In this document: in pieces, positions 5,369 through 42,833 of the stretch
Layout of the letters: each line of letters begins with the position of its first letter
Numbering within the stretch: the first letter of the stretch is position 1
Source: a virus
Virus record (IMG/VR): IMGVR_UViG_3300045241_000019
Coordinates: 1 to 42,833 of that record
Direction: 5' to 3' (one strand)
Length of the DNA: 42,833 nt
Program-made: the position numbers and the translations under genes
Notes under the pieces: generated by a model
Told to the model about the DNA's origin: nothing
The model's database searches: none
Seen by the model: only the letters and a program-made list of their open reading frames with translations

Positions 5369-6427
5369 ATGGCAGATCCACTGGACGTAACTGGGCAGGA
5401 GAACGTCATTCCCGATGCTGGTGGCAATGCGCCATCAGCACCCACAACCCCGTCGCCGGGACTCAACGAATCCATCGAGAAGGCGTTCGACGCTTCTCCT
5501 GCTGCCAAGACCCTAGAGGAGCCGGAAAAGCCCGCCACAGGGCCGCTCGACCGGCCCCGTGACCCGTTTGGGCGCTTCGCGCCGAAGGAAGGTGGCACGC
5601 CGGGGCAGGCAGCACCGGGGGCACCCACAACCCCCGGTGCTATCGCTCCCGGCCCCGGCGCTGCCGCCCCGCCGACGTTCGCGGAGCCGCCCGCCTCATG
5701 GCGACCGGAGATGCGTCCGCTCTACGACAAGGTTCCGGCGGAAGTGCGCCCCTATCTCCATCAGCGCGAGCAGGAGTTGCAGTACGGCTTCGACGCGGTC
5801 GCGCGCCGGGGCAACGTCGCGGAAGCGGTGCTGAACGAGTTCGTCCCCTACGCTGACCAGCTGCAAGCCGAAGGAGCCACGCCGGTCACGGCGATGCGGA
5901 CACTTCTTCAGACGGCACATCAACTGCGTACCGGCGGGCCGGAGTTCAGGAAGGCGATCATCCTGAATCTCGCGCAGCAGTACAGCGTGGATCTCTCGCA
6001 GCCGGTCAACGTGGAGATCGCGCGGGCCGAAGCGCAGGCCGCACAGCTGCTGACGGAGCGGATGTACGGCAGTGCCGCGAATCAGCAACAAGTCCAGCAG
6101 CAGAGCCAGCAGGAATTCATGGCTTTCGCCAATGACCCGCAGAACGAGTTTTTCCCCAAGGTGCGCCACATCATGGCGGCGCTGATCGAGAACAATGTTG
6201 CCCCCAATCTGCGCGTGGCCTACGACATGGCGATAGGCATGGACGGCGACATCCGCACGACGCTGATCGACCGCGAGTACCAGAAGCGCACGCAGGCGCT
6301 GAAGCAGAACGCTGCGGCCAACGTCAGCCTGCGGGGAGCGCCCAACGGCACCGGCATGGCCCCGGCGGGCGCTGCCATAGGGGAGTCGGTGCGGGCATCT
6401 TTGGAGAGAGTGATAGGAGGGGGTTGA
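5369..6427 (+). CDS. Putative scaffolding protein
   Basis: A 352-residue protein. Residues 1-115 are disordered and rich in proline, alanine and glycine. Residues 115-330 are largely helical, with glutamine-rich stretches (QQQVQQQSQQ near 233), and the C-terminus is basic-helical. This composition, and the place between portal and major capsid genes, fits an internal scaffold that guides capsid assembly and then leaves. No protease is visible nearby. The stop codon lies inside the candidate capsid promoter. Confidence 0.65.
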   Translation: MADPLDVTGQENVIPDAGGNAPSAPTTPSPGLNESIEKAFDASPAAKTLEEPEKPATGPLDRPRDPFGRFAPKEGGTPGQAAPGAPTTPGAIAPGPGAAAPPTFAEPPASWRPEMRPLYDKVPAEVRPYLHQREQELQYGFDAVARRGNVAEAVLNEFVPYADQLQAEGATPVTAMRTLLQTAHQLRTGGPEFRKAIILNLAQQYSVDLSQPVNVEIARAEAQAAQLLTERMYGSAANQQQVQQQSQQEFMAFANDPQNEFFPKVRHIMAALIENNVAPNLRVAYDMAIGMDGDIRTTLIDREYQKRTQALKQNAAANVSLRGAPNGTGMAPAGAAIGESVRASLERVIGGG

Positions 6428-6452
6428 CGTGTAGGAAGTACACTGACATTAT
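6424..6452 (+). promoter_or_regulatory. Candidate sigma70-type promoter for capsid genes
   Basis: TTGACG at 6424-6429 and CATTAT at 6447-6452 are separated by 17 bases. The -35 matches five of six consensus bases and the -10 four of six. It sits at the start of a 162-base intergenic gap, the largest in the rightward block, directly ahead of the major capsid gene. A strong terminator follows the second gene downstream, so a separately transcribed capsid unit is plausible. The rest of 6453-6577 shows nothing else I can name. Confidence 0.5.
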
Positions 6453-6589
6453 TTCTCCTGTCCCTCACGGAAACCAGACTAATCCCCCACAGGGGGAGCG
6501 GCCACTGGGTTCCAGCACTGCGCCACTCACGGCGCGGCCAGCCTTCTGAGGTTGCGTGTGTTCGTCCACTCAACTCTTAGGAGCGCCTC

Positions 6590-7561
6590 ATGGCATTCGC
6601 CAACGCTGCAATTTCCGACGTGGTCGCCACGACCATTCAGAACCGCTCGCGCACTGTCGCGGACAACGTCACAAAAAACAATGCAATTTTGCTGAAGATG
6701 AACGGGCAGGGGAACGTGAAGACGTTCTCCGGCGGCAACGTCATCATGCAGGAGTTGTCGTTCCAGCAGAACGGCAACGCAGGGTGGTACAGCGGCTACG
6801 AGGCGCTGCCAATCGGCGCACAGGACGTGATCAGCGCCGCGCAGTACGACATCAAGCAGGCCGCTGCTGCGGTGACGATGAGCGGGCTGGAGATGCTGCA
6901 AAATTCCAGCAAGGAACAGATCATCGACTTGATGGAAGCGCGCATCAAGGTCGCGGAAGCCACGATGCAGAACCTGATCGCTGCGGGCATCTACAGCGAC
7001 GGCACGGCGAACGGCGGCAAGCAGATCAACGGTCTGCTCAACGCGGTTGCGAAGGTTCCAACGAATCTCTACGGCGGCATCGATCGCACCGCGTGGCCGT
7101 TCTGGGCGAACCAAGCGCAGATCGGTGTCGGTGGCGCGGCAACGTCAGCGAACATCCAAGGCAAGTTCAACACGATGTACGCCAAGTGCTGCCGTGGCAA
7201 CGATCACATCGACCTGATCATGGTCGATAACGGCTACTGGGGTCTGTACATGGCCTCGCTGCAAGCGATCCAGCGCTTCAGCGACAGCAAGCTGGGGGAT
7301 CTCGGCTTCCCGGCGGTCAAGTTCATGCAGGCCGACGTGGTGCTGGACGGCGGGATCGGCGGTTTCGCTCCGGTGAACGCGGCCTATTTCCTCAACACCA
7401 AGTACATCTTCCTGCGCCCGCACAGCGCTCGCAATTTCGTCGCGCTCGATCCGTCGAAGCGCTACAGCGTCAATCAAGACGCGGTGGTGCAACTGATCGC
7501 GTGGGCGGGCAATCTGTGCATGAACGGCTCGCAGTTTCAAGGTGTGCTGGCCGACGCCTGA
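6590..7561 (+). CDS. Major capsid protein
   Basis: A 323-residue protein preceded by TAGGAG eight bases before ATG. Its sequence (N-terminal helix, then GNVKTFSGGNVIMQELSF, and a central IDLMEARIKVAEATMQNLIA helix) is typical of major capsid proteins of podovirus-like phages and is presumed to adopt the HK97 fold. Position after scaffold and before a decoration-like gene agrees. It is one of few genes here with its own spacious leader and a candidate promoter, as expected for the most abundant virion protein. Confidence 0.85.
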   Translation: MAFANAAISDVVATTIQNRSRTVADNVTKNNAILLKMNGQGNVKTFSGGNVIMQELSFQQNGNAGWYSGYEALPIGAQDVISAAQYDIKQAAAAVTMSGLEMLQNSSKEQIIDLMEARIKVAEATMQNLIAAGIYSDGTANGGKQINGLLNAVAKVPTNLYGGIDRTAWPFWANQAQIGVGGAATSANIQGKFNTMYAKCCRGNDHIDLIMVDNGYWGLYMASLQAIQRFSDSKLGDLGFPAVKFMQADVVLDGGIGGFAPVNAAYFLNTKYIFLRPHSARNFVALDPSKRYSVNQDAVVQLIAWAGNLCMNGSQFQGVLADA

Positions 7562-7594
7562 TCGACAACCGACAACTGACGAAGGAGCAGACCC

Positions 7595-7936
7595 ATGCCA
7601 GCAACCGCCATTTCCTCGCCGCTCATCGGCGCATCGCTCACCCAAGTCTGGAAGCCGCAACTCGACGGCGTGAACGCCGCCGGTTCGTTCTACGACAAGT
7701 TCGCGCCGTTCGCGCTGGGCACGACGGTTCATGCCGTTCCCAGTGCTACGGGCGGGCGCAACACGGCAGTGTTCTGCCGCGTCGGCATCGCCATCGCGGC
7801 GGGAGCCACTGGGGGCATCACCAACGGTGTATCCGTCGCTGCGGGGGCGGGGAATACTTACACCAACGACACGGGGCAGAATCTGGCGGTGGGCGATTAC
7901 GCCTTCCTCACCGCAGCCGACGCCGTCACGCCGTAA
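7595..7936 (+). CDS. Putative capsid decoration or stabilisation protein
   Basis: A 113-residue protein with GAAGGAG upstream, directly behind the capsid gene and ahead of a terminator. It is rich in alanine, glycine and threonine with alternating hydrophobic residues, suggesting a beta-rich fold. The GNTYTNDTGQNLAVGDYAFL segment near the end is common in small capsid-associated proteins. Expression in equal dosage with the capsid protein fits a decoration role. The family is not firmly recognised. Confidence 0.55.
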   Translation: MPATAISSPLIGASLTQVWKPQLDGVNAAGSFYDKFAPFALGTTVHAVPSATGGRNTAVFCRVGIAIAAGATGGITNGVSVAAGAGNTYTNDTGQNLAVGDYAFLTAADAVTP

Positions 7937-7985
7937 CGGGCACCTCTCGCACGGGCTTTCTTCCTTTCTCCCGTGTTTCTGTCAG

Positions 7986-8024
7986 CGCGGCGAGGGACGA
8001 TCCTCCCCCTCGCCGCGTTTTTTT
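7986..8024 (+). terminator. Strong rho-independent terminator after capsid unit
   Basis: An 11-bp perfect stem (CGCGGCGAGGG at 7986-7996 with CCCTCGCCGCG at 8007-8017) is followed immediately by seven T. It lies 50 bases after the decoration-like gene. The next gene starts only ten bases beyond the T run, so downstream genes need read-through or another promoter. Confidence 0.9.
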
Positions 8025-8033
8025 GGAGATGCC

Positions 8034-8399
8034 GTGTCATTCATCAATCGGCTGCTCGTTGACGACGATAAGGGGCGCGTGGTGATGACAGTGGGTTCGC
8101 CCGTTGCCGGTGATCCGTATCTCGTCGGATTGCGCTACAACGCCGCACAGGCGCTATTCGTGTCCTCCGCTGCGGTGGAAAAGGACTCTCCCTCGCAGAA
8201 CGGCGTAGCGTCCGATAACGGGGGTGCGATGTACATACGGATCGACAATCCGCCGCCGCGCAACGCTCGTTGCTATAACGGCGGGCTGCTGCTCGCCAAC
8301 GATGGTGCGCTCTGCGTGACGATACAGAAGCCCATCGCCGGTTATGTTCGCGGGTGTCCCGTGGACAGCATCGGCCAAGTCTGCATCGGGGCGACGTAA
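8034..8399 (+). CDS. Head accessory protein of unknown function
   Basis: A 121-residue protein from GTG 8034 with GGAG five bases upstream, placed just behind the terminator. The sequence looks beta-rich with many glycines and asparagines (GGAMYIRIDN, NGGLLLANDGALCV). The YNGGLLLANDGAL region is seen in proteins coded near capsid genes of other phages. It may be a neck or head-fibre component; I cannot name a family. Its stop overlaps the next ATG. Confidence 0.55.
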   Translation: MSFINRLLVDDDKGRVVMTVGSPVAGDPYLVGLRYNAAQALFVSSAAVEKDSPSQNGVASDNGGAMYIRIDNPPPRNARCYNGGLLLANDGALCVTIQKPIAGYVRGCPVDSIGQVCIGAT

Positions 8400-9274
8400 T
8401 GCCAGACGCACTCATAGCAGACATCACGCCGGGAGTACCGACAGCAACCGACGAGATCGAACTCCAGCGCACTGCTTCTGGTGCGTCGATCCGCGCCACG
8501 CTCGCGCAGCTTTTCGCAGCGAGCGGGTTCACGTTGGTCGCTCCCAACTTCGTCGGGCCGGTGACGATCACCTCCGGTCAGCTGAACCTACCTGACGGCA
8601 GCAAGCCCGCACCGTCGCTCGTCTTCACCACCGATCCGACGAGCGGCTGGTACAAGAGCGGTGCGGCGCAGTGGACGTGGACTGCTGCGGGCGTTGCCGC
8701 GATTGCGCTCACCGCGACTGCATTGCGTGTGAAGAGTGATTCTGTCGTTGGCTGGTGCGTGGGCGAAACCGACACGCCGATGGACACCGCGTTCGGTCGC
8801 AACGCTGTCGGTGTCGCGGAGGTGAACAGCGGCGTGCTGGGTGTGTTCCGCGATATGCGGCTGCGGAACCTCTACTACGCGCTGCCGACTGTCGTGGAGA
8901 CAGCGAGCGGGCCGGTGACGAGCGACTATCTCACAGGCTACGACAGTGCGGTGGGTGATCTCGTCTATATCGACGTGAACGCACTGTGGCAGAAGACGGA
9001 CGCGAACACCGTCTACAGCGGGATGCTCGGCATCACGCTGGAGGTCAAACTCGCAGGGCAGCAGATGCGCGTGGCGCTTCCCGGTTCCACGATCTACTCG
9101 GCTGCGTTCCCCGCGTTCACCGTTGGCGCTCCCGTGTACATGAGCGAGAACGCGGGTGTGGTCACGCAGACGAAGCCCGTCACTTCGCTCTCCGCGACTC
9201 GCGTCGTCGGCTGGGCGGTGGACACGCAGAAACTTTTCTTCTTCCCATCGCCGGACTACATCACGCACGTCTGA
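8399..9274 (+). CDS. Putative head-fibre or virion surface protein
   Basis: A 291-residue protein overlapping the previous stop (TAATG). The N-terminal 45 residues (helical, TDEIELQRTASGASIRATLA) look like a virion attachment segment of fibre proteins. The rest is beta-rich, with tryptophan in GWYKSGAAQWTW near residue 83, a pattern seen in fibre shafts. Its place between capsid and tail genes suggests a head fibre or collar appendage. The receptor-binding tail fibre lies elsewhere (21398). Confidence 0.5.
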   Translation: MPDALIADITPGVPTATDEIELQRTASGASIRATLAQLFAASGFTLVAPNFVGPVTITSGQLNLPDGSKPAPSLVFTTDPTSGWYKSGAAQWTWTAAGVAAIALTATALRVKSDSVVGWCVGETDTPMDTAFGRNAVGVAEVNSGVLGVFRDMRLRNLYYALPTVVETASGPVTSDYLTGYDSAVGDLVYIDVNALWQKTDANTVYSGMLGITLEVKLAGQQMRVALPGSTIYSAAFPAFTVGAPVYMSENAGVVTQTKPVTSLSATRVVGWAVDTQKLFFFPSPDYITHV

Positions 9275-36030: not shown

Positions 36031-36281
36031 CATTTGCTCCCGTTGGTGAATCGGATCGTGTTAACCCCTCGCGTGTACTGGCCCAACTCCTGCCCGCGCA
36101 CCACGTTCAGCACCTCCAGCGTGGTGCCCACAGCAGCCCAGCGCATCTCTTTCAGCGCCGCCCAGTGCGCGCGCTTCGGATCGGAGAAATACTTGCTGGG
36201 GATGCGCTTCTGCGTCTTCGCATTCCAGAGGTGGAATGGTCGGGTGGGGCAGCTGGATCTCTTCTCGGTGAGGTGTGCCAT
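36030..36281 (-). CDS. Hypothetical early protein
   Basis: An 83-residue protein from ATG 36281, overlapping the upstream stop (GTGATG) and ending at the next ATG pair. It has HLWNAKTQKRIPSKYFSDPK, a mixed basic and aromatic stretch, then AALKEMRWAAVGTTLEVLNV. It may be a small alpha/beta protein; no family is recognised. Confidence 0.55.
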   Translation of the reverse strand: MAHLTEKRSSCPTRPFHLWNAKTQKRIPSKYFSDPKRAHWAALKEMRWAAVGTTLEVLNVVRGQELGQYTRGVNTIRFTNGSK

Positions 36282-36832
36282 CACGCCGCCCGCTTCCTGT
36301 CGGCGCGCTCATAGGCGCGCAGGCTCCGGCGGATCTTGGCGATGGCCTTCGTCGCGCGATCCAGCTTGCGTTCCCACAGCGCCTCGCGCTTCATCAGCCG
36401 CTCGATGCGCTCCGCGCGCGCCGACGCTTTGGCTTCGCCCTCGTCCACCACGTCCATCTCCACCAGCGGCGGCGTCGTCACGGTGAGGTAGTCGCGCTTC
36501 AGAATCTCGCGCACCAGCTTCGCCTCAAAGCGCGCGTGCGCCTTGCTGTGGGGCCGCTCGCCGGGGTTGGCCCGTGACCACAGCAGATGCGAGAGATCGT
36601 GCGCGAGCCGCTTCCATCCGGCCTGTGCGTTGACCAGCAGCACGCCGTGGCGCACCCATGTGTAGCGGTTGCCAGTGGTGATCCGCGCAGCTGCCGGGAA
36701 TTCTCCCAGCCCCCAGCGGTAGAGCCTGCGCGCGCATCGGAGCGCGTGATCGGGGTTGATCGGCGTCGTCGGCAGCACCGTGCTGTCGCGGTAGTCGATT
36801 CCATCGTAGTGCTTGGCGATGCCGGTCTTCAT
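36281..36832 (-). CDS. Putative metal-binding protein with HDLSH motif
   Basis: A 183-residue protein. WKRLAHDLSHLLW near residues 73-85 is followed by HSKAHARFEAKL near 95-106. The H-x3-H plus a downstream H-x3-H and glutamate resemble metal-binding sites of SprT-like or other small metalloproteins, but no HExxH is present. The C-terminal 60 residues form a basic helix (EALWERKLDRATKAIAKIRR). Proteins with this histidine pattern recur in phage early regions. Enzymatic activity is unproven. Confidence 0.55.
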   Translation of the reverse strand: MKTGIAKHYDGIDYRDSTVLPTTPINPDHALRCARRLYRWGLGEFPAAARITTGNRYTWVRHGVLLVNAQAGWKRLAHDLSHLLWSRANPGERPHSKAHARFEAKLVREILKRDYLTVTTPPLVEMDVVDEGEAKASARAERIERLMKREALWERKLDRATKAIAKIRRSLRAYERADRKRAA

Positions 36833-37820: not shown

Positions 37821-37930
37821 GGGGTAAAACAAAATAATTTTTTAACTCCGAAGTTTCTTGCGCGCGCGATCTAGGTTTTCCTGTTGTAATGAGCGGGCGG
37901 CGGGGGGAGTCGGGCCGCGCGGCGCGCGCA

Positions 37931-38020
37931 GTGAGCGCTCGCTAACGTGCGAAGTGAGCGCTCGCTCACGTTAGTGACCGCTCACGTTAGTGAGCGCTTA
38001 CTTCCCCAGTGAGCGCTCAC
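37931..38020. repeat. Five-copy palindromic iteron cluster
   Basis: Five 12-bp elements lie at 37931-37942, 37954-37965, 37974-37985, 37990-38001 and 38009-38020. The last is the perfect palindrome GTGAGCGCTCAC; the others differ by one or two bases. The second is part of a longer run GTGAGCGCTCGCTCAC. Neighbours are spaced 16-23 bases start to start, not helically even. The cluster sits between the replication-block promoter and the AAA+ unit. An origin or operator array is the best guess. Confidence 0.9.
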
Positions 38021-38169
38021 TATCACTCCGGCGCGCGGGCACGGTTTTCGCTTCGCTCGCAAAATCGGTTGGCAGTCGGCAGCTTGCTGGCAGCAAGCCG
38101 GACGCACGCAACCGGGGGCGGATCGGCGCGCAGCTGGCGCAGCTGGAGCGCTTCTGCCGGGGGCGCGCG

Positions 38170-38218: not shown

Positions 38219-38385
38219 TGCCGGGGGCATCTCCGGCGGGCAGCTGGCGCGGATCGCGGGCAGCTGCCGGGGGCGGGCATCCGGCGGGCAGGCTGAAACG
38301 CCCCGGCAGCAGGCTTAGAACGGGCGCAGGGGCGCGCAGCTGGCGCGCGGCAGCATCCGGCAGCTGGCAGCAGGCGCGGGCAGCT

Positions 38386-38396
38386 GGAGAGTCTCC
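38386..38396. promoter_or_regulatory. GGAGA-G-TCTCC palindrome, operator-like
   Basis: An 11-base perfect dyad around a central G. It resembles the larger palindrome at 38473 and the GAGACAGTCTC elements near the AAA+ promoter (42009-42057), so all may bind one regulator. Confidence 0.5.
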
Positions 38397-38472
38397 CGGC
38401 TGATGCGATGCGTCCCAGGAGATCTAGAATTTACTTTAACTTGTGCTGCCTGGTAGCAAGTAGGACATTTTG

Positions 38473-38487
38473 CCGGAGAGTCTCCGG
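38473..38487. promoter_or_regulatory. CCGGAGA-G-TCTCCGG palindrome, operator-like
   Basis: A perfect 7+1+7 dyad directly next to the terminator of the AAA+ unit. Its core GGAGAGTCTCC repeats that at 38386. Because a terminator stem stands just beside it, it could also act in RNA, but it lacks its own T run. Confidence 0.5.
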
Positions 38488-38489
38488 GC

Positions 38490-38525
38490 AAAAGAAAACG
38501 CCCCGGCAAGCCTGCTGCCGGGGCG
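38490..38525 (-). terminator. Rho-independent terminator of the AAA+ unit
   Basis: A 9-bp stem (CGCCCCGGC at 38499-38507 with GCCGGGGCG at 38517-38525) is followed on the minus strand by TTTTCTTTT (38490-38498). It lies 21 bases after the last leftward gene of the unit and separates it from the replication block. Confidence 0.85.
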
Positions 38526-38545
38526 CTAGGGGCGCAGCTGGCGCG

Positions 38546-38719
38546 CTAGGTGCGCTCTGCCTGCTGGAGCGCCAGCAGGCGCGCTCCGGCGATCTCCAGC
38601 AGCATCTCGCAGTCGCGCAGTGCATCCAGCGGATCGCGCCGCGCCGTGCTATCGAGCGCAGCTGTCAGCCAGTAGGACGTGGCAGGATCGGCGCGCACGG
38701 CGCGCTCCAGCGGCGTCAT
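38546..38719 (-). CDS. Small helical protein, last gene of AAA+ unit
   Basis: A 57-residue protein from ATG 38719, overlapping the previous stop (TGATG). It is helical and leucine/alanine-rich (TSYWLTAALDSTARRDPLDAL; CEMLLEIAGARLLALQQAER). A DPLDAL.D..ML pattern recurs in small phage proteins. No function is known. Confidence 0.55.
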   Translation of the reverse strand: MTPLERAVRADPATSYWLTAALDSTARRDPLDALRDCEMLLEIAGARLLALQQAERT

Positions 38720-38976
38720 CAGTGCATCCCGGCTTTGCCGATAGCAGCAGCAGCGAGCGCAGCTGCCGCGCGCGCCTCTTCGCTCTCGCTCTCCAGCTGC
38801 GCCTCTCCGTGCTGCGCGTCTGCTGCATCAGCAGCGAGCGCGTTATCGTGCGCCTCGCGCGCACGTTGCATCACTTCGCGGAAGCGCTCCATAAAATCCG
38901 CGAATTCATCCTGCGACAAATCCGCGATCAGCGACAACAGGATCAGCGGACGCACTGACTGCATACGATCAGACAT
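38719..38976 (-). CDS. Small acidic helical protein
   Basis: An 85-residue protein, helical throughout, with DLSQDEFADFMERFREVMQR followed by an alanine/glutamate-rich tail. GTCGAAAGGT stands before the ATG, nearly identical to the leader of the preceding gene. A helical, acidic, alanine-rich peptide could be an adaptor to the AAA+ ATPase upstream; that is conjecture from operon membership. Confidence 0.55.
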   Translation of the reverse strand: MSDRMQSVRPLILLSLIADLSQDEFADFMERFREVMQRAREAHDNALAADAADAQHGEAQLESESEEARAAAALAAAAIGKAGMH

Positions 38977-38978
38977 GA

Positions 38979-39128
38979 TTAACCTTTCGACTTGAGGATT
39001 GAAACGATTGCCAGCACGACGCAAACCGCGACAACAAAATAGAGCGCGAGAGGTTCCTGCGCGCCGTGCAAGTGCGCGCCGTGCGTTGCGTGGCATTCCG
39101 ACGTTGCGACTGCGAGACTGCGAAACAT
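38979..39128 (-). CDS. 49-residue single-span membrane protein
   Basis: From ATG 39128, with GTCGAAAGGT eight bases before the start. Residues 1-26 contain several histidines (CHATHGAHLHG), which could bind a metal. Residues 28-45 are one hydrophobic span (LALYFVVAVCVVLAIVSIL), ending KSKG. The basic C-terminal end favours N-outside. It ends two bases before the next ATG. Confidence 0.55.
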   Translation of the reverse strand: MFRSLAVATSECHATHGAHLHGAQEPLALYFVVAVCVVLAIVSILKSKG

Positions 39129-39148
39129 GATTTACCTTTCGACGTTGC

Positions 39149-39195
39149 GGGCAACAGGTTTGCCCCCAATGCGCCGCGCGAGCCTCGCGCGGCGC
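39149..39195 (-). repeat. Tandem intergenic hairpins in AAA+ unit
   Basis: A 6-bp hairpin (GGGCAA at 39149-39154 with TTGCCC at 39160-39165) and an 11-bp hairpin (GCGCCGCGCGA at 39171-39181 with TCGCGCGGCGC at 39185-39195, 3-base loop) fill the 79-base gap between two leftward genes. No T run follows on either strand. They may stabilise or process the mRNA, giving different levels of upstream and downstream genes. Confidence 0.7.
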
Positions 39196-39207
39196 ATGGA
39201 GAGTGCC

Positions 39208-39531
39208 CTAGTGCCCCGAATGCCAGCTGCCGCCCCCGTCGTGCGAATGCACGCCTGTTGCGATTGCCAGCCGGGAGACTTTGACGCCAGCGAGTGCCTC
39301 TGCCCGCGCGACGGCGCGGCGCACTTCCGGCGTATTCATCAGCGCACGATAGGCGCACAAGTCGGACACTCCGGCGTTATCTTTCCAGCCACGGAACGCC
39401 AGCGCTCCATTGCGCCCGACGACGACAGTAACTTCTCCGGCGCGGATCGCATCCTGCAATCGCCGGAGCGCGGACTGCTGCGCCGTTTTCTGTTGCTGCG
39501 TGAGATCGGTTTGCGTCGTGCAAGTCATCAT
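39208..39531 (-). CDS. Hypothetical protein of AAA+ unit
   Basis: A 107-residue protein; the ATG at 39531 overlaps the previous stop, and a second ATG at 39528 has slightly better spacing from GGAG. Residues 10-30 are a glutamine-rich helix (LTQQQKTAQQSALRRLQDAI), then a strand-rich core (VTVVVGRNGALAFRGWKDN), then a helix (VRRAVARAEALAGVKVSRL) and a histidine/glycine end. It could be a small DNA-binding or regulatory protein; no family is recognised. Confidence 0.5.
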   Translation of the reverse strand: MMTCTTQTDLTQQQKTAQQSALRRLQDAIRAGEVTVVVGRNGALAFRGWKDNAGVSDLCAYRALMNTPEVRRAVARAEALAGVKVSRLAIATGVHSHDGGGSWHSGH

Positions 39532-40337
39532 CACTCTCCGAATTCAAACGCCGGGACTGCAATCGGCGTCACTGCTGGCGCATCCTGCGCCGGGATCAGA
39601 TCGAGCGAGCGCGCCGGAATGCTTTCGACTTGCTGCGCTGTCATTGAATCATCGCCCCCTGCCATATCCAGCACTGCAAACCGCGCGGATTGGAGCGCTT
39701 CCATTTTGAGATCCGCGACGACTTCCGCAGCAACCTCTCCCGCCTTTTCCACGCGCGAGACAATCGTGCGCGCCGCGCGCCGTGCTTCTGCGATTGCCAG
39801 CGAGACTTTGCGCTCCGTTTCGTCGGAGAGCATTCCAGCCAGCGCTCGCGCACTGTTGGCAGCTGCGCGGATCACGTCGGGATTTGCCGCGCGAATGCCG
39901 CGCTCCATGTCGCGGATCAAATCGCGCACTTCGCTGGCAATCGCGCGCGCCGCCTGTTCGTCGCTGTCCGCGATCCTGCCCGTGAAACAGTACAAATCCA
40001 CGCGCGTGTGGCGCGACGTTGCGTTATGCGCGTTTGCGACTGCCTGCGCTTCGAGGATCGCAGCTGCCAGCGCTTGCTCGCTGTCAACCGGACACAACAG
40101 CCCGAATGACGACGGGCAGCACACGCGAGTGATCAGTGCGCGCGCCTTGCCACGCGCGACGACGGCGCGCGCGTGTTCCTGCGCGTCCGCGATCTCGCGC
40201 GTCGTGTTCCAGCTGGCAACCGTTGACGCGCCGACTGCTGTCTCCGGCTGGATGGTTTGCTTCTGGTACTGAACGCCCCCGCGCAGTGTGCTTTTCAGGC
40301 TTACCAGCAAGCCGGGGCGAATGAGAGTGCTATCCAT
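39531..40337 (-). CDS. Helical partner protein of AAA+ ATPase, unknown function
   Basis: A 268-residue protein. The first 40 residues form a beta element (LIRPGLLVSLKSTLRGGVQY) that recurs in phage proteins coded next to AAA+ ATPases, though I cannot name the family. A cysteine pair (RVCCPSSFGLLCP) lies near 90. Residues 125-235 are one long alanine-rich helical region with coiled-coil character. The CGAAAGGAT leader precedes the ATG. Adjacency and similar composition suggest it is a substrate or co-factor of the ATPase. Confidence 0.55.
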   Translation of the reverse strand: MDSTLIRPGLLVSLKSTLRGGVQYQKQTIQPETAVGASTVASWNTTREIADAQEHARAVVARGKARALITRVCCPSSFGLLCPVDSEQALAAAILEAQAVANAHNATSRHTRVDLYCFTGRIADSDEQAARAIASEVRDLIRDMERGIRAANPDVIRAAANSARALAGMLSDETERKVSLAIAEARRAARTIVSRVEKAGEVAAEVVADLKMEALQSARFAVLDMAGGDDSMTAQQVESIPARSLDLIPAQDAPAVTPIAVPAFEFGE

Positions 40338-40354
40338 GTCGCGATCCTTTCGGG

Positions 40355-41935
40355 TTAGATATCGAGCGAGCGCGCGGCGGATGCCGGAGCGCTTTTGACT
40401 TCTGCCACGGACGCCGGACGCGCGCGCCCCTGCGCCCACTGCCGGAGCGCGGCGATCTTGTCGCTGGCAGTGCGCGCGAGTGGCACGGTTTGCTTTGCAG
40501 CTGCGAGCAAATCGTTGGTGCAAATCTCGCGCGCGTCGTCGGCAAAGCCTGCATACATCGCATCGATTACCAACTGCGCCATCTCCGCGCCGGTAAAGTC
40601 GGATGATGCGGCGACGACTGCCGCGTAATCAATCGGCGCATCCGCGCGCCCATTCGCGCGCAGTGCGGTTTGCAGGATTTCCGCGCGCTCGCTCGCTGTC
40701 GGGAGATCGACAAAAAACATACCGTCGAAACGCCGGATGAATTCAGGCTTCAGCACGGTTGCATCGTTGGCTGTCGCGACGACGAACACGGGCGCAGTGT
40801 GATCCTGCATCCATGACAGGATCACTCCCAATTGATCCTTGCTGACGCCGCCATCCTGCCCGCCATCGTTCGCGCCTGCGAGCGCTTTTTCCACTTCGTC
40901 AATCCAGAGGATGCACGGCGCGACAGTCTCCGCGACTTTCAGCGCTTTGCGGAAATTCGCTTCGCTGTCTCCGACGAATTTGCTTTTCAGTGCGCCCATA
41001 TCCAGCTTGAGAAGTGGAACGCTCCATGCAGCTGCGAGCGCTTTCGCAGTGAGGCTCTTACCGCAACCGGGAACGCCCACTGCCAGCAAGCCTTTGGGCG
41101 CAGGCAATCCATACGCGCGCGCCTTTGCGCTGAATGCCTGCCTGCGCTGGATCAGCCAGCCTTTGAGATTCTCCAGCCCGCCAATCGCATCCAGCCCGCC
41201 AGCAACCGGATCGAACCACTCCAGCACTCGCTCGCGCGATATCACTCTGCGCTTTTCGCCGGAGATGATGCCCGCATCCATCATTTGCTTGCTGATCAGC
41301 GAGCGCGCGAAAGTGCTCTGCGCCTCTTCTGCGCTCAAACCGAGCGCGGCATCTATCGCTTGCTCGCGCACGCCATTGGGCGCAGCTGCCGCGCGCATTT
41401 GCTCCGGCAGTGCGCCCACTGCCGCATCGAGTAGCGTCGCGATCTCCGCGCGATCCGGCAGAGGCACGTCGATGGTGATCACGTTGCCGGACAATTCGGC
41501 GGGCACTTCTGCCGTGCTGCTGATCATTACCATTGCGCGAGCGCTGTCGCGCGGGGATTGCGGCAATTCGCGGCAGAGTGATTTGACTGCGCGGCACACG
41601 TTTGGATCTTTCAGCCACGGCGCGAGATCGCGCAGTATCCAAACTTGCCGCTTCTCGCTGTCGCGGATCTCATTGAGCATTTCAATCGGATCAGTGGCGC
41701 GAGCGTTCAGCACTTCGCCGCTCATGTTGGAGATGCCACGCGCGCAATCCCACACAACGGGAGCGTATCCAGCGCTGGCTGCGCCGTCGAAAACGACGCG
41801 CTCCGTGCGCGCCTCTTCGCGGGAGACACACAACAGCAGCGGATTGCGAGCGCGCAGCAGTGCGGCGATATCGAGCGCGCACTTTGCGCCAGCGGTTTGC
41901 ATTGCAGCTGCGAGTGGAGTCGGTTGCGATTGCAT
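40355..41935 (-). CDS. Ycf46-like AAA+ ATPase
   Basis: A 526-residue protein started at 41935, with AAAGGAT seven bases upstream. The C-terminal AAA+ module (about 245-480) has Walker A GVPGCGKS (287-294), Walker B CILWIDE (D346, E347), sensor-1 N390 in VVATAND, and arginine fingers in FIRRFDGMFFVDLP. The N-terminal 30-170 looks like a degenerate second ATPase module without a P-loop, the plan of Ycf46-type proteins. These act as hexameric remodelling machines, but substrates in phages are unknown. It is the first gene of a separate, GCGC-rich leftward unit with its own candidate promoter. Confidence 0.8.
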   Translation of the reverse strand: MQSQPTPLAAAMQTAGAKCALDIAALLRARNPLLLCVSREEARTERVVFDGAASAGYAPVVWDCARGISNMSGEVLNARATDPIEMLNEIRDSEKRQVWILRDLAPWLKDPNVCRAVKSLCRELPQSPRDSARAMVMISSTAEVPAELSGNVITIDVPLPDRAEIATLLDAAVGALPEQMRAAAAPNGVREQAIDAALGLSAEEAQSTFARSLISKQMMDAGIISGEKRRVISRERVLEWFDPVAGGLDAIGGLENLKGWLIQRRQAFSAKARAYGLPAPKGLLAVGVPGCGKSLTAKALAAAWSVPLLKLDMGALKSKFVGDSEANFRKALKVAETVAPCILWIDEVEKALAGANDGGQDGGVSKDQLGVILSWMQDHTAPVFVVATANDATVLKPEFIRRFDGMFFVDLPTASERAEILQTALRANGRADAPIDYAAVVAASSDFTGAEMAQLVIDAMYAGFADDAREICTNDLLAAAKQTVPLARTASDKIAALRQWAQGRARPASVAEVKSAPASAARSLDI

Positions 41936-42002: not shown

Positions 42003-42032
42003 ATCATACCGGGAGACAGTCTTTATATGCAA
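42003..42032 (-). promoter_or_regulatory. Candidate promoter for the AAA+ unit
   Basis: On the minus strand TTGCAT (42027-42032) and TATGAT (42003-42008) are 18 bases apart. The -10 matches five of six bases, the -35 three of six. The start would lie near 41996, with a leader of about 60 bases. The promoter is embedded in an inverted repeat (42009-42057), as expected of a regulated promoter. Confidence 0.5.
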
Positions 42033-42057
42033 GCGATGTTTTGAGACAGTCTCCCGG
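42009..42057. promoter_or_regulatory. Inverted repeat overlapping AAA+ promoter, operator candidate
   Basis: CCGGGAGACAGTC (42009-42021) and GACAGTCTCCCGG (42045-42057) are inverted copies with one mismatch. Each also holds a GAGACAGTCT dyad: perfect (GAGACAGTCTC) on the right, one base short on the left. The left arm lies in the spacer of the candidate promoter. A repressor binding both would block transcription of the AAA+ unit. Related palindromes occur at 38386 and 38473. Confidence 0.6.
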
Positions 42058-42364: not shown

Positions 42365-42672
42365 TGGCATCGTGCTGCCAGCAAAACGGAGACAGAATCC
42401 GCATCCGCCAGCCCGCCAGCGCAGCCCGCCAGCGCTCCGGCGCAGGCTTCCAGCTGCCACGCGCAGCCAGCCAGCTGCCGCGCGCTCTGCGCCGCATCCT
42501 GCGCCCCTGCTGCCGCATCCGCGAGCGCTCCGGCGCAGGCTTCCAGCTTGCTGCTGGCAGCGCTCCGGCGCGCGGCGCGCTACGCCCCGGCAGCTGCCGC
42601 GCCTGATCGGCAACCGGGGCGCGTCGTGCCGAGCAATCCGGCGCAGAATCCGACTTGCTGCCAGCAGGAAAT
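42365..42672. other. Gene-free GC-rich region with direct repeats
   Basis: No gene is supported. An open frame at 42342-42743 is arginine/proline-rich low complexity without a ribosome-binding site. A 25-base direct repeat (AGCGCTCCGGCGCAGGCTTC then CAGCT) occurs at 42431-42455 and 42524-42548. A shortened copy, AGCGCTCCGGCGC, is at 42559-42571. CAGCTG-rich units like those at 38.1-38.4 kb also recur. Confidence 0.7.
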
Positions 42673-42751
42673 GTAAGCACTCACTCAGGGTTAGTAAGCG
42701 CTCACTGGGGGGGTTAGTGAGTGCTCACTGGGGCGGTTGGTAAGCGCTCAC
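42673..42751. repeat. Four-copy palindromic iteron cluster at the circular junction
   Basis: GTAAGCACTCAC (42673-42684), GTAAGCGCTCAC (42694-42705), GTGAGTGCTCAC (42717-42728) and GTAAGCGCTCAC (42740-42751) share the consensus GTRAGYRCTCAC of the cluster at 37931. Start-to-start spacing is 21-23 bases, about two helical turns. The last two also appear at 11-45 because of the terminal overlap. The cluster lies upstream of the rightward packaging genes. Confidence 0.9.
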
Positions 42752-42833
42752 TAACCGAACGATCGTTCGACCGCCCCCCGACGAACGGCGACGGGACTCC
42801 CGGCGGCTTCCGGCCCGAGCCGGTCATCACCCG
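42707..42833. repeat. 127-bp exact terminal direct repeat (right copy)
   Basis: Identical to bases 1-127. Closing the molecule on this overlap gives a 42,706-bp circle with the junction upstream of the first rightward gene. Confidence 0.95.

Follow-up and report, generated by a model that had tools for sequence, protein, structure and literature searches.

Three adjacent genes of the viral record IMGVR_UViG_3300045241_000019 (IMG/VR; the whole record of 42,833 nucleotides was analysed and is referred to as the window) encode an AAA+ ATPase of the Ycf46 family and two partner proteins, P2 and P3, and we find that the three are inherited together and carried by many otherwise unrelated phages. 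We favour, with some reserve, the view that they are a dedicated ATP-driven protein-remodelling machine, an unfoldase, used in infected cells. An earlier note on this DNA, made from its letters alone, had placed the genes in a leftward unit of six. All six open reading frames (ORFs) are indeed present on the minus strand between positions 38,546 and 41,935, and the following three are its conserved core (lengths in amino acids, aa):

40355..41935, minus strand: AAA+ ATPase, Ycf46 family, P0001, 526 aa, phrog_8638
39531..40337, minus strand: P2, P0002, 268 aa, phrog_11021, obligate partner
39208..39531, minus strand: P3, P0003, 107 aa, phrog_11784, small Cys/His protein

Because a single-sequence search of viral contigs with P2 returned no matches, the AAA+ protein was made the starting point of the locus search. 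An alignment of its close relatives, used as query, yielded 80 viral loci at 42–63% identity, and removal of near-duplicates at 90% left 73 distinct AAA+ genes (72 relatives and that of the window, the Cluster O phages included). The loci were gathered by AAA+ similarity, and the counts thus describe this AAA+ branch rather than phage AAA+ proteins at large. P2 is present at 67 of the 73 loci and P3 at 65; the order AAA-P2-P3 is exact in 57, and six more read P3-AAA-P2. Both partners are missing from five loci, each of them within 0.9 kb of the end of its contig. Distances between loci are correlated for each pair of proteins (AAA-P2, 0.89; P2-P3, 0.78; AAA-P3, 0.73), values that were reached in 0 of 999 permutations. 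AAA+, P2 and P3 are a co-inherited unit. The gene order that the note had put forward for checking is therefore kept as far as the 107-aa protein, but its fourth member, the 49-aa membrane peptide P0004, has no relative in the compared loci, and neither has the 85-aa P0005, so that the conserved set is one of three genes and not six. P0006 is akin to an ORF found downstream of the module in five loci (L124–L127 and L130; E ~2e-10). Marginal Pfam matches of the small ORFs to HCV_NS4b, FAM176 and KfrA_N were dismissed as chance.

Relatives of the window's DNA polymerase were detected in none of 30 carriers tested, and its capsid gave a faint match in two of the 30. Since these carriers share neither the polymerase nor, these two faint matches apart, the capsid, the module is portable between unrelated phages. 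No AAA+ gene was seen in partial relatives of the window's portal (62–76%), a weak observation given that these records are incomplete. Both results agree with the suggestion that no standard phage function needs the set: it is no ordinary replication or morphogenesis set, many other genomes have it, and PHROGs 8638, 11021 and 11784 are all annotated as of unknown function, in line with partners lacking a recognised role. Among the carriers are the Cluster O mycobacteriophages Corndog (gp96/gp95) and Firecracker (gp100/gp99/gp97), which differ from the window in backbone and host and yet have the same AAA+ protein (45%), P2 and P3, annotated there simply as AAA-ATPase and hypothetical proteins; Firecracker has one further gene, of 90 aa, that separates P2 from P3. 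Peptides of the Corndog AAA+ protein were found in infected-cell extract only and in none of the purified virion samples, and gp95, the P2 homologue, was found in one-gradient-purified particles and in infected cells (PMC4351075), a distribution that fits a function of the module inside the cell. Both phages can be cultured, which makes the function directly testable by gene deletion.

Judged by its sequence, P0001 is a full-length Ycf46-family AAA+ protein with an intact motor domain. The Pfam match to PF00004 (AAA; E 2.7e-26) covers residues 284–410 only, and in tblastn searches the protein aligns over residues ~22–509 with Ycf46-type proteins of 80 cellular loci, at 36–41% identity to cellular Ycf46 (E 1e-97 to 1e-114). 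The Ycf46-like identity proposed earlier thus extends along the whole protein, N-terminal region included. Full-length chromosomal matches come from cyanobacteria, Chloroflexi, Planctomycetes, Armatimonadota and others. The protein comprises an AAA-like N-terminal region (~22–220) and a motor domain (~250–490). The former had been called degenerate, and indeed the ~220 residues ahead of the AAA+ domain align with Ycf46 N-terminal regions, and residues 1–240 contain neither a P-loop of the form GxxxxGK[ST] nor a Pfam AAA match. The motor lacks nothing and resembles that of Cdc48/VCP, a known threading unfoldase. Its catalytic residues are Walker A K293, Walker B E347, sensor-1 N390 and the arginines R401/R402; the first three are invariant in 186 of 186 aligned AAA+ proteins, as are both arginines except in two divergent viral rows. 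The pore loop of P0001 reads K319-F320-V321-G, and among the AAA+ proteins of the module the aromatic position of this K-[FYW]-V-G motif is F, Y or W in 73 of 74. An aromatic residue at this position is what grips the substrate during threading in classical AAA proteins. Cellular Ycf46 mostly has leucine there (20/30 and 38/49). P0001 thus has the aromatic-hydrophobic pore loop 1 that is typical of AAA+ unfoldases.

The structure of P2 was predicted with AlphaFold2 (AF2) from an alignment of 60 sequences, and the prediction is a confident one (predicted local distance difference test, pLDDT, 89.9). The predicted fold has three long strands followed by a mixed alpha/beta portion, so that the protein, which the note had called helical, is not purely so. 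When the model was compared with BFVD by Foldseek, a phage DUF3150 protein was among the best matches outside P2's own family (probability 0.99, E 0.024, template modelling (TM) scores 0.41/0.39), which is suggestive of a resemblance in fold. Membership of DUF3150 by sequence was rejected: P0002 has no PF11348 (DUF3150) match above the Pfam gathering score, and hhalign gave E 0.015–0.024 in one comparison, at a probability of 2–3%. Neither P2 nor P3 matched a solved structure by sequence or by fold. The 200–230-aa proteins that follow the AAA+ gene in Rhizobium, Pseudomonas, Rhodobacter and Aeromonas phages were considered as relatives of P2 and set aside, their profiles being dissimilar. In the 65-sequence alignment of P3, C4, D57 and C59 are invariant and H95, H97 and D98 nearly so, a pattern resembling a metal site, and P3 is on this evidence probably metal-binding. 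No known fold was recognised for P3, and profile comparison ruled it out as a diverged DUF1257 or DUF2997. Its ATG overlaps the stop codon of P2 (TGATG); the start used by the family is probably the second ATG, at 39528.

All AAA-P2-P3 members, together with the viral locus L186, form one virus-only clade (Shimodaira-Hasegawa-like approximate likelihood ratio test, SH-aLRT, 99; quick method). With modest support (93 and 80), the sequences closest to it in the tree include those of phages L010, L016 and L018 and of a Verrucomicrobiaceae chromosome (L063), and these nearest relatives, in phages and Verrucomicrobia, pair the AAA+ protein with DUF3150, DUF1257 and DUF2997 proteins. The DUF3150 protein of L063 is recognised by Pfam (97 bits), those of L010 and L018 by a local profile to which these two had themselves contributed (L010 also has a marginal Pfam match), and in phages L004/L005 a DUF3150 protein (71.6 bits) lies beside the Ycf46 AAA+ gene. 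A DUF3150-type protein together with DUF1257/DUF2997 was seen beside the Ycf46 AAA+ gene in L004/L005, L010, L018, L063 and L097. L186 is a bridge between the two arrangements: at 5686–8900 it reads AAA-P2-DUF1257-DUF2997, without P3, and it has the S-L-V pore loop that is seen in cellular Ycf46. Ycf46 genes at a greater distance, from phages and cells alike, neighbour DUF1257 (Ycf35) and DUF2997, by Pfam matches and local profiles. P0001 shares the domain plan and catalytic residues of the Ycf46 family, which is cyanobacterial and plastid and chromosomal in many phyla, whereas the viral members differ in forming their own clade, in the aromatic pore loop and in having P2 and P3 next to them instead of DUF1257 and DUF2997. 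The window unit also resembles the MoxR/CobS-type systems in having an AAA+ gene beside a partner of putative DUF3150 fold; in cellular loci L201, L202 and L204, DUF3150 comes after a MoxR-like AAA+ gene. However, the window's AAA+ protein belongs to another clade (Cdc48-like, not MoxR-like) and P2 fails the DUF3150 profile. Nor does the unit look like a MoxR-vWA chaperone, as the best Pfam match of P0001 is PF00004 and no vWA match was found in the unit. Five viral loci (L023, L129 and L186 among them) have ParB-like genes close to the AAA module, and the Streptococcus satellite phage Javan368 (L024) and L015 share a set of ~575-aa, ~170-aa, AAA+ and ~160-aa genes around a Ycf46-like AAA+ gene, without DUF1257 or DUF2997.

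Cellular Ycf46 groups often add NrdG-like radical SAM proteins, Hsp70, GrpE and HEAT/WD40 proteins, and the cellular and plasmid operons L036, L042, L056, L061, L070 and L208 mix the Ycf46 AAA+ gene, DUF1257, DUF2997, radical SAM, chaperone and HEAT/WD40 genes in differing combinations. The Pseudanabaena plasmid pPg_01 has GrpE, Hsp70, DUF1257, DUF2997 and AAA in one group; the AAA+ grouping also occurs on the plasmids Paenarthrobacter pC and Bacillus pBP1 and on IncC plasmids, among which p02B17002_A_KPC (L209, 4632–6792) carries a Ycf46-like AAA+ gene, a DUF1257-like gene (local profile) and DUF2997, a set whose function seems not to have been described. In PLSDB, 685 plasmids match P0001 and 580 of these are conjugative. 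P2 was not found in plasmids. The Ycf46-DUF1257-DUF2997 operons, archaeal ones included, have the look of a chaperone system not yet described: the open-access literature on DUF1257 and DUF2997 does not, as far as checked, describe it, and the open-access literature found does not mention DUF3150, most subscription papers lying outside the scope of both searches. The window unit has the AAA+ family in common with these modules and differs in lacking DUF1257, DUF2997, radical SAM and Hsp70; none of P0002–P0006 has a Pfam match to DUF1257 or DUF2997.

The aromatic pore loop, the obligate adaptor-like partner and the small Cys/His protein are the reasons for reading the module as an unfoldase. 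Co-inheritance in a conserved set, the overlap of the P2 and P3 reading frames, the invariant catalytic residues, the Cdc48/VCP-like motor, the single viral clade, the DUF3150 partners of the nearest relatives, the Corndog peptide data and the portability of the module also speak for it. The roles suggested in the note (remodelling of a host complex, host takeover, defence, counter-defence) are candidates that the present data do not tell apart. In the mechanism that we propose, the Ycf46-family AAA+ protein would form a ring whose motor is the AAA+ domain at the C-terminal end, the degenerate AAA-like N-terminal region serving as its platform. P2, with its DUF3150-like predicted fold, would dock on the ring as obligate partner and select or present the substrate, and P3, small and probably metal-binding through its Cys/His residues, would act as a second adaptor or cofactor subunit. 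The motor would then thread or pull the substrate by means of the aromatic pore loop and so dismantle or reshape its target during infection; this target would most likely be a complex of the host or of a defence system, and less likely one of the phage. Ring, docking, threading and target are all inferred, and several points weigh against the proposal. No substrate, complex or activity is evidenced for any member, and genes conserved as a set need not encode a physical complex. The link between P2 and DUF3150 is insignificant by sequence, and by fold it reaches a Foldseek E of only 0.024 with a TM score of 0.41; P3 has no recognisable fold; and the aromatic pore loop is one inherited character of one clade. 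A broader proposal, to which we give somewhat less than even weight, is that the module is the virus-specific branch of a widespread and so far undescribed prokaryotic machine, in which Ycf46 rings work with an adaptor of DUF3150 fold and with a small subunit that bears cysteines or binds metal. This subunit would be DUF1257/DUF2997 in cells and on plasmids and P3 in viruses, and the viral form would be an aromatic-loop threading unfoldase traded among unrelated phages to dismantle a common host target.

To our knowledge, Ycf46 and Ycf35 (DUF1257) are conserved plastid and cyanobacterial reading frames that have been known for decades with little mechanism attached. Ycf46 is now tied to a recurrent gene system across phages, plasmids (IncC resistance plasmids included), bacteria and archaea, of which the viral version is compact, with three genes. 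As far as checked, this viral form, an AAA+ machine with dedicated partners, is undescribed in the open-access literature, and an earlier description elsewhere is possible. Should the module indeed dismantle a complex of the host, a weak point that many unrelated phages exploit would come to light.

The remaining features of the unit and its surroundings are the following:

38979..39128, minus strand: P0004, 49-aa His-rich single-span membrane peptide, lineage-specific
38719..38976, minus strand: P0005, 85-aa helical ORF
38546..38719, minus strand: P0006, 57-aa ORF
38497..38527, minus strand: intrinsic terminator, 13-bp stem, 5-nt loop, T-rich tail
42003..42052, minus strand: candidate promoter/operator, TTGCAT-N18-TATGAT at 42032-42003, read by eye
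37930..38021, no strand: five AGTGAGCGCTCACT-like palindromes, left of the unit
42672..42752, no strand: four AGTGAGCGCTCACT-like palindromes, right of the unit

The terminator that had been proposed is convincing, with its 13-bp stem and T run at 38527-38497 and a folding energy, neighbouring hairpin included, of −30.5 kcal/mol (z −2.0). The unit's own promoter fared less well: a weak candidate can be read by eye, flanked by two GAGACAGTCT copies 30 bp apart (42013-42022 and 42043-42052), but a consensus scan detected none for the AAA+ unit. Palindromic GGAGAGTCTCC motifs near the terminator (38384-38402 and 38473-38490) are similar to the GAGACAGTCTC motifs of the candidate promoter of the AAA+ gene, and a single regulator possibly serves both. 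Repeat arrays do flank the unit, as the AGTGAGCGCTCACT-like clusters lie on both sides and the core has 12 matches in the window (at most two mismatches), a number that none of 100 shuffles reached. The last two palindromes of the right cluster reappear at 10-46 owing to the 127-bp overlap between the two ends of the record, so that on the circular record the right array runs on into the left end. The GCGC bias is likewise real (43/kb in the unit against 16/kb across 20 other genes of the window), and G+C at third codon positions is 0.70 in the unit against 0.78 in the other genes. However, the bias is not confined to the unit, since the shift already begins at ~36 kb and a 183-aa gene outside it (36281-36832) has 41.7 GCGC/kb. 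The composition of the unit suggests a foreign origin and, with the flanking palindromes, fits acquired cargo.

Such an origin, the presence of the module in unrelated phages and the lack of the AAA+ gene in fragments of the window phage's close relatives would all suit a defence or counter-defence cassette, in which the AAA+ protein with P2 and P3 puts a defence complex of the host out of action or keeps competing phages out. The motor domain, of the classical AAA+ type, is moreover distantly related to that of IetA, the AAA+ component of the anti-phage system IetAS and the sole, weak match of P0001 in the defence library. We nevertheless regard a cassette of this kind as rather unlikely. The similarity to IetA, confined to the motor, reaches 91–92 bits against a curated cut-off of 510, the N-terminal regions differ, and the subtilase partner is missing, no subtilisin-like protease (IetS) being found among P0002–P0006. 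The unit has no effector (nuclease, protease or NADase), P2 and P3 match nothing in PADLOC, and P2, besides its absence from plasmids, was not convincingly found in 396 Actinomycetota genomes, although defence genes usually circulate in such places.

The invariant C4 and C59 and near-invariant H95 and H97 of P3 would also be in keeping with a maturation chaperone for metal cofactors or radical enzymes, the AAA+ protein inserting or repairing a cofactor and P3 acting as metal donor or sensor. Cellular and plasmid relatives adjoin NrdG-like 4Fe-4S/radical SAM proteins and Hsp70/GrpE, and in Synechocystis DUF2997-Ycf35 adjoins the ferredoxin gene fed7 (PMC4284462). Yet no radical SAM or ferredoxin gene was found in the window unit, P3 is unrelated to DUF1257 and DUF2997 by profile and its metal site is itself putative, and the aromatic pore loop favours threading over gentle cofactor insertion; we consider this role improbable. 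Slightly more improbable still is an ordinary helper in morphogenesis or replication, either an assembly chaperone or a clamp-loader-like protein. Phages do employ chaperones for assembly, several have the AAA+ gene between lysis/tail and replication genes, and some loci have ParB-like genes nearby, but the polymerase and capsid comparisons show that the module tracks no single virion or replication system, and the Corndog AAA+ protein is absent from purified virions (PMC4351075). A strong clamp-loader match is likewise lacking for P0001, whose matches to phrog_168 (E 3.4e-4) and phrog_11838 (E 0.0099) are marginal and concern the AAA+ core.

The window is the whole virus record, and its bases 1-127 are identical to 42707-42833; from this exact terminal repeat the assembly is judged to be complete and circular, with 42,706 bp. 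No RNA families and no tRNA genes were found in it. Its genes include those for terminase, portal, major head protein, tail proteins, amidase, helicases and DNA polymerase. When the first 8 kb of the window were used as query, named phages proved only faintly similar, and the capsid gene shares 65–67% identity with the capsid genes of Stenotrophomonas phage BUCT555, Myxococcus Mx8 and a Bradyrhizobium phage. Among the 31 smaller ORFs of the window, one matches phrog_4470, an acyl-CoA N-acyltransferase (alignment A9; E 7e-34).

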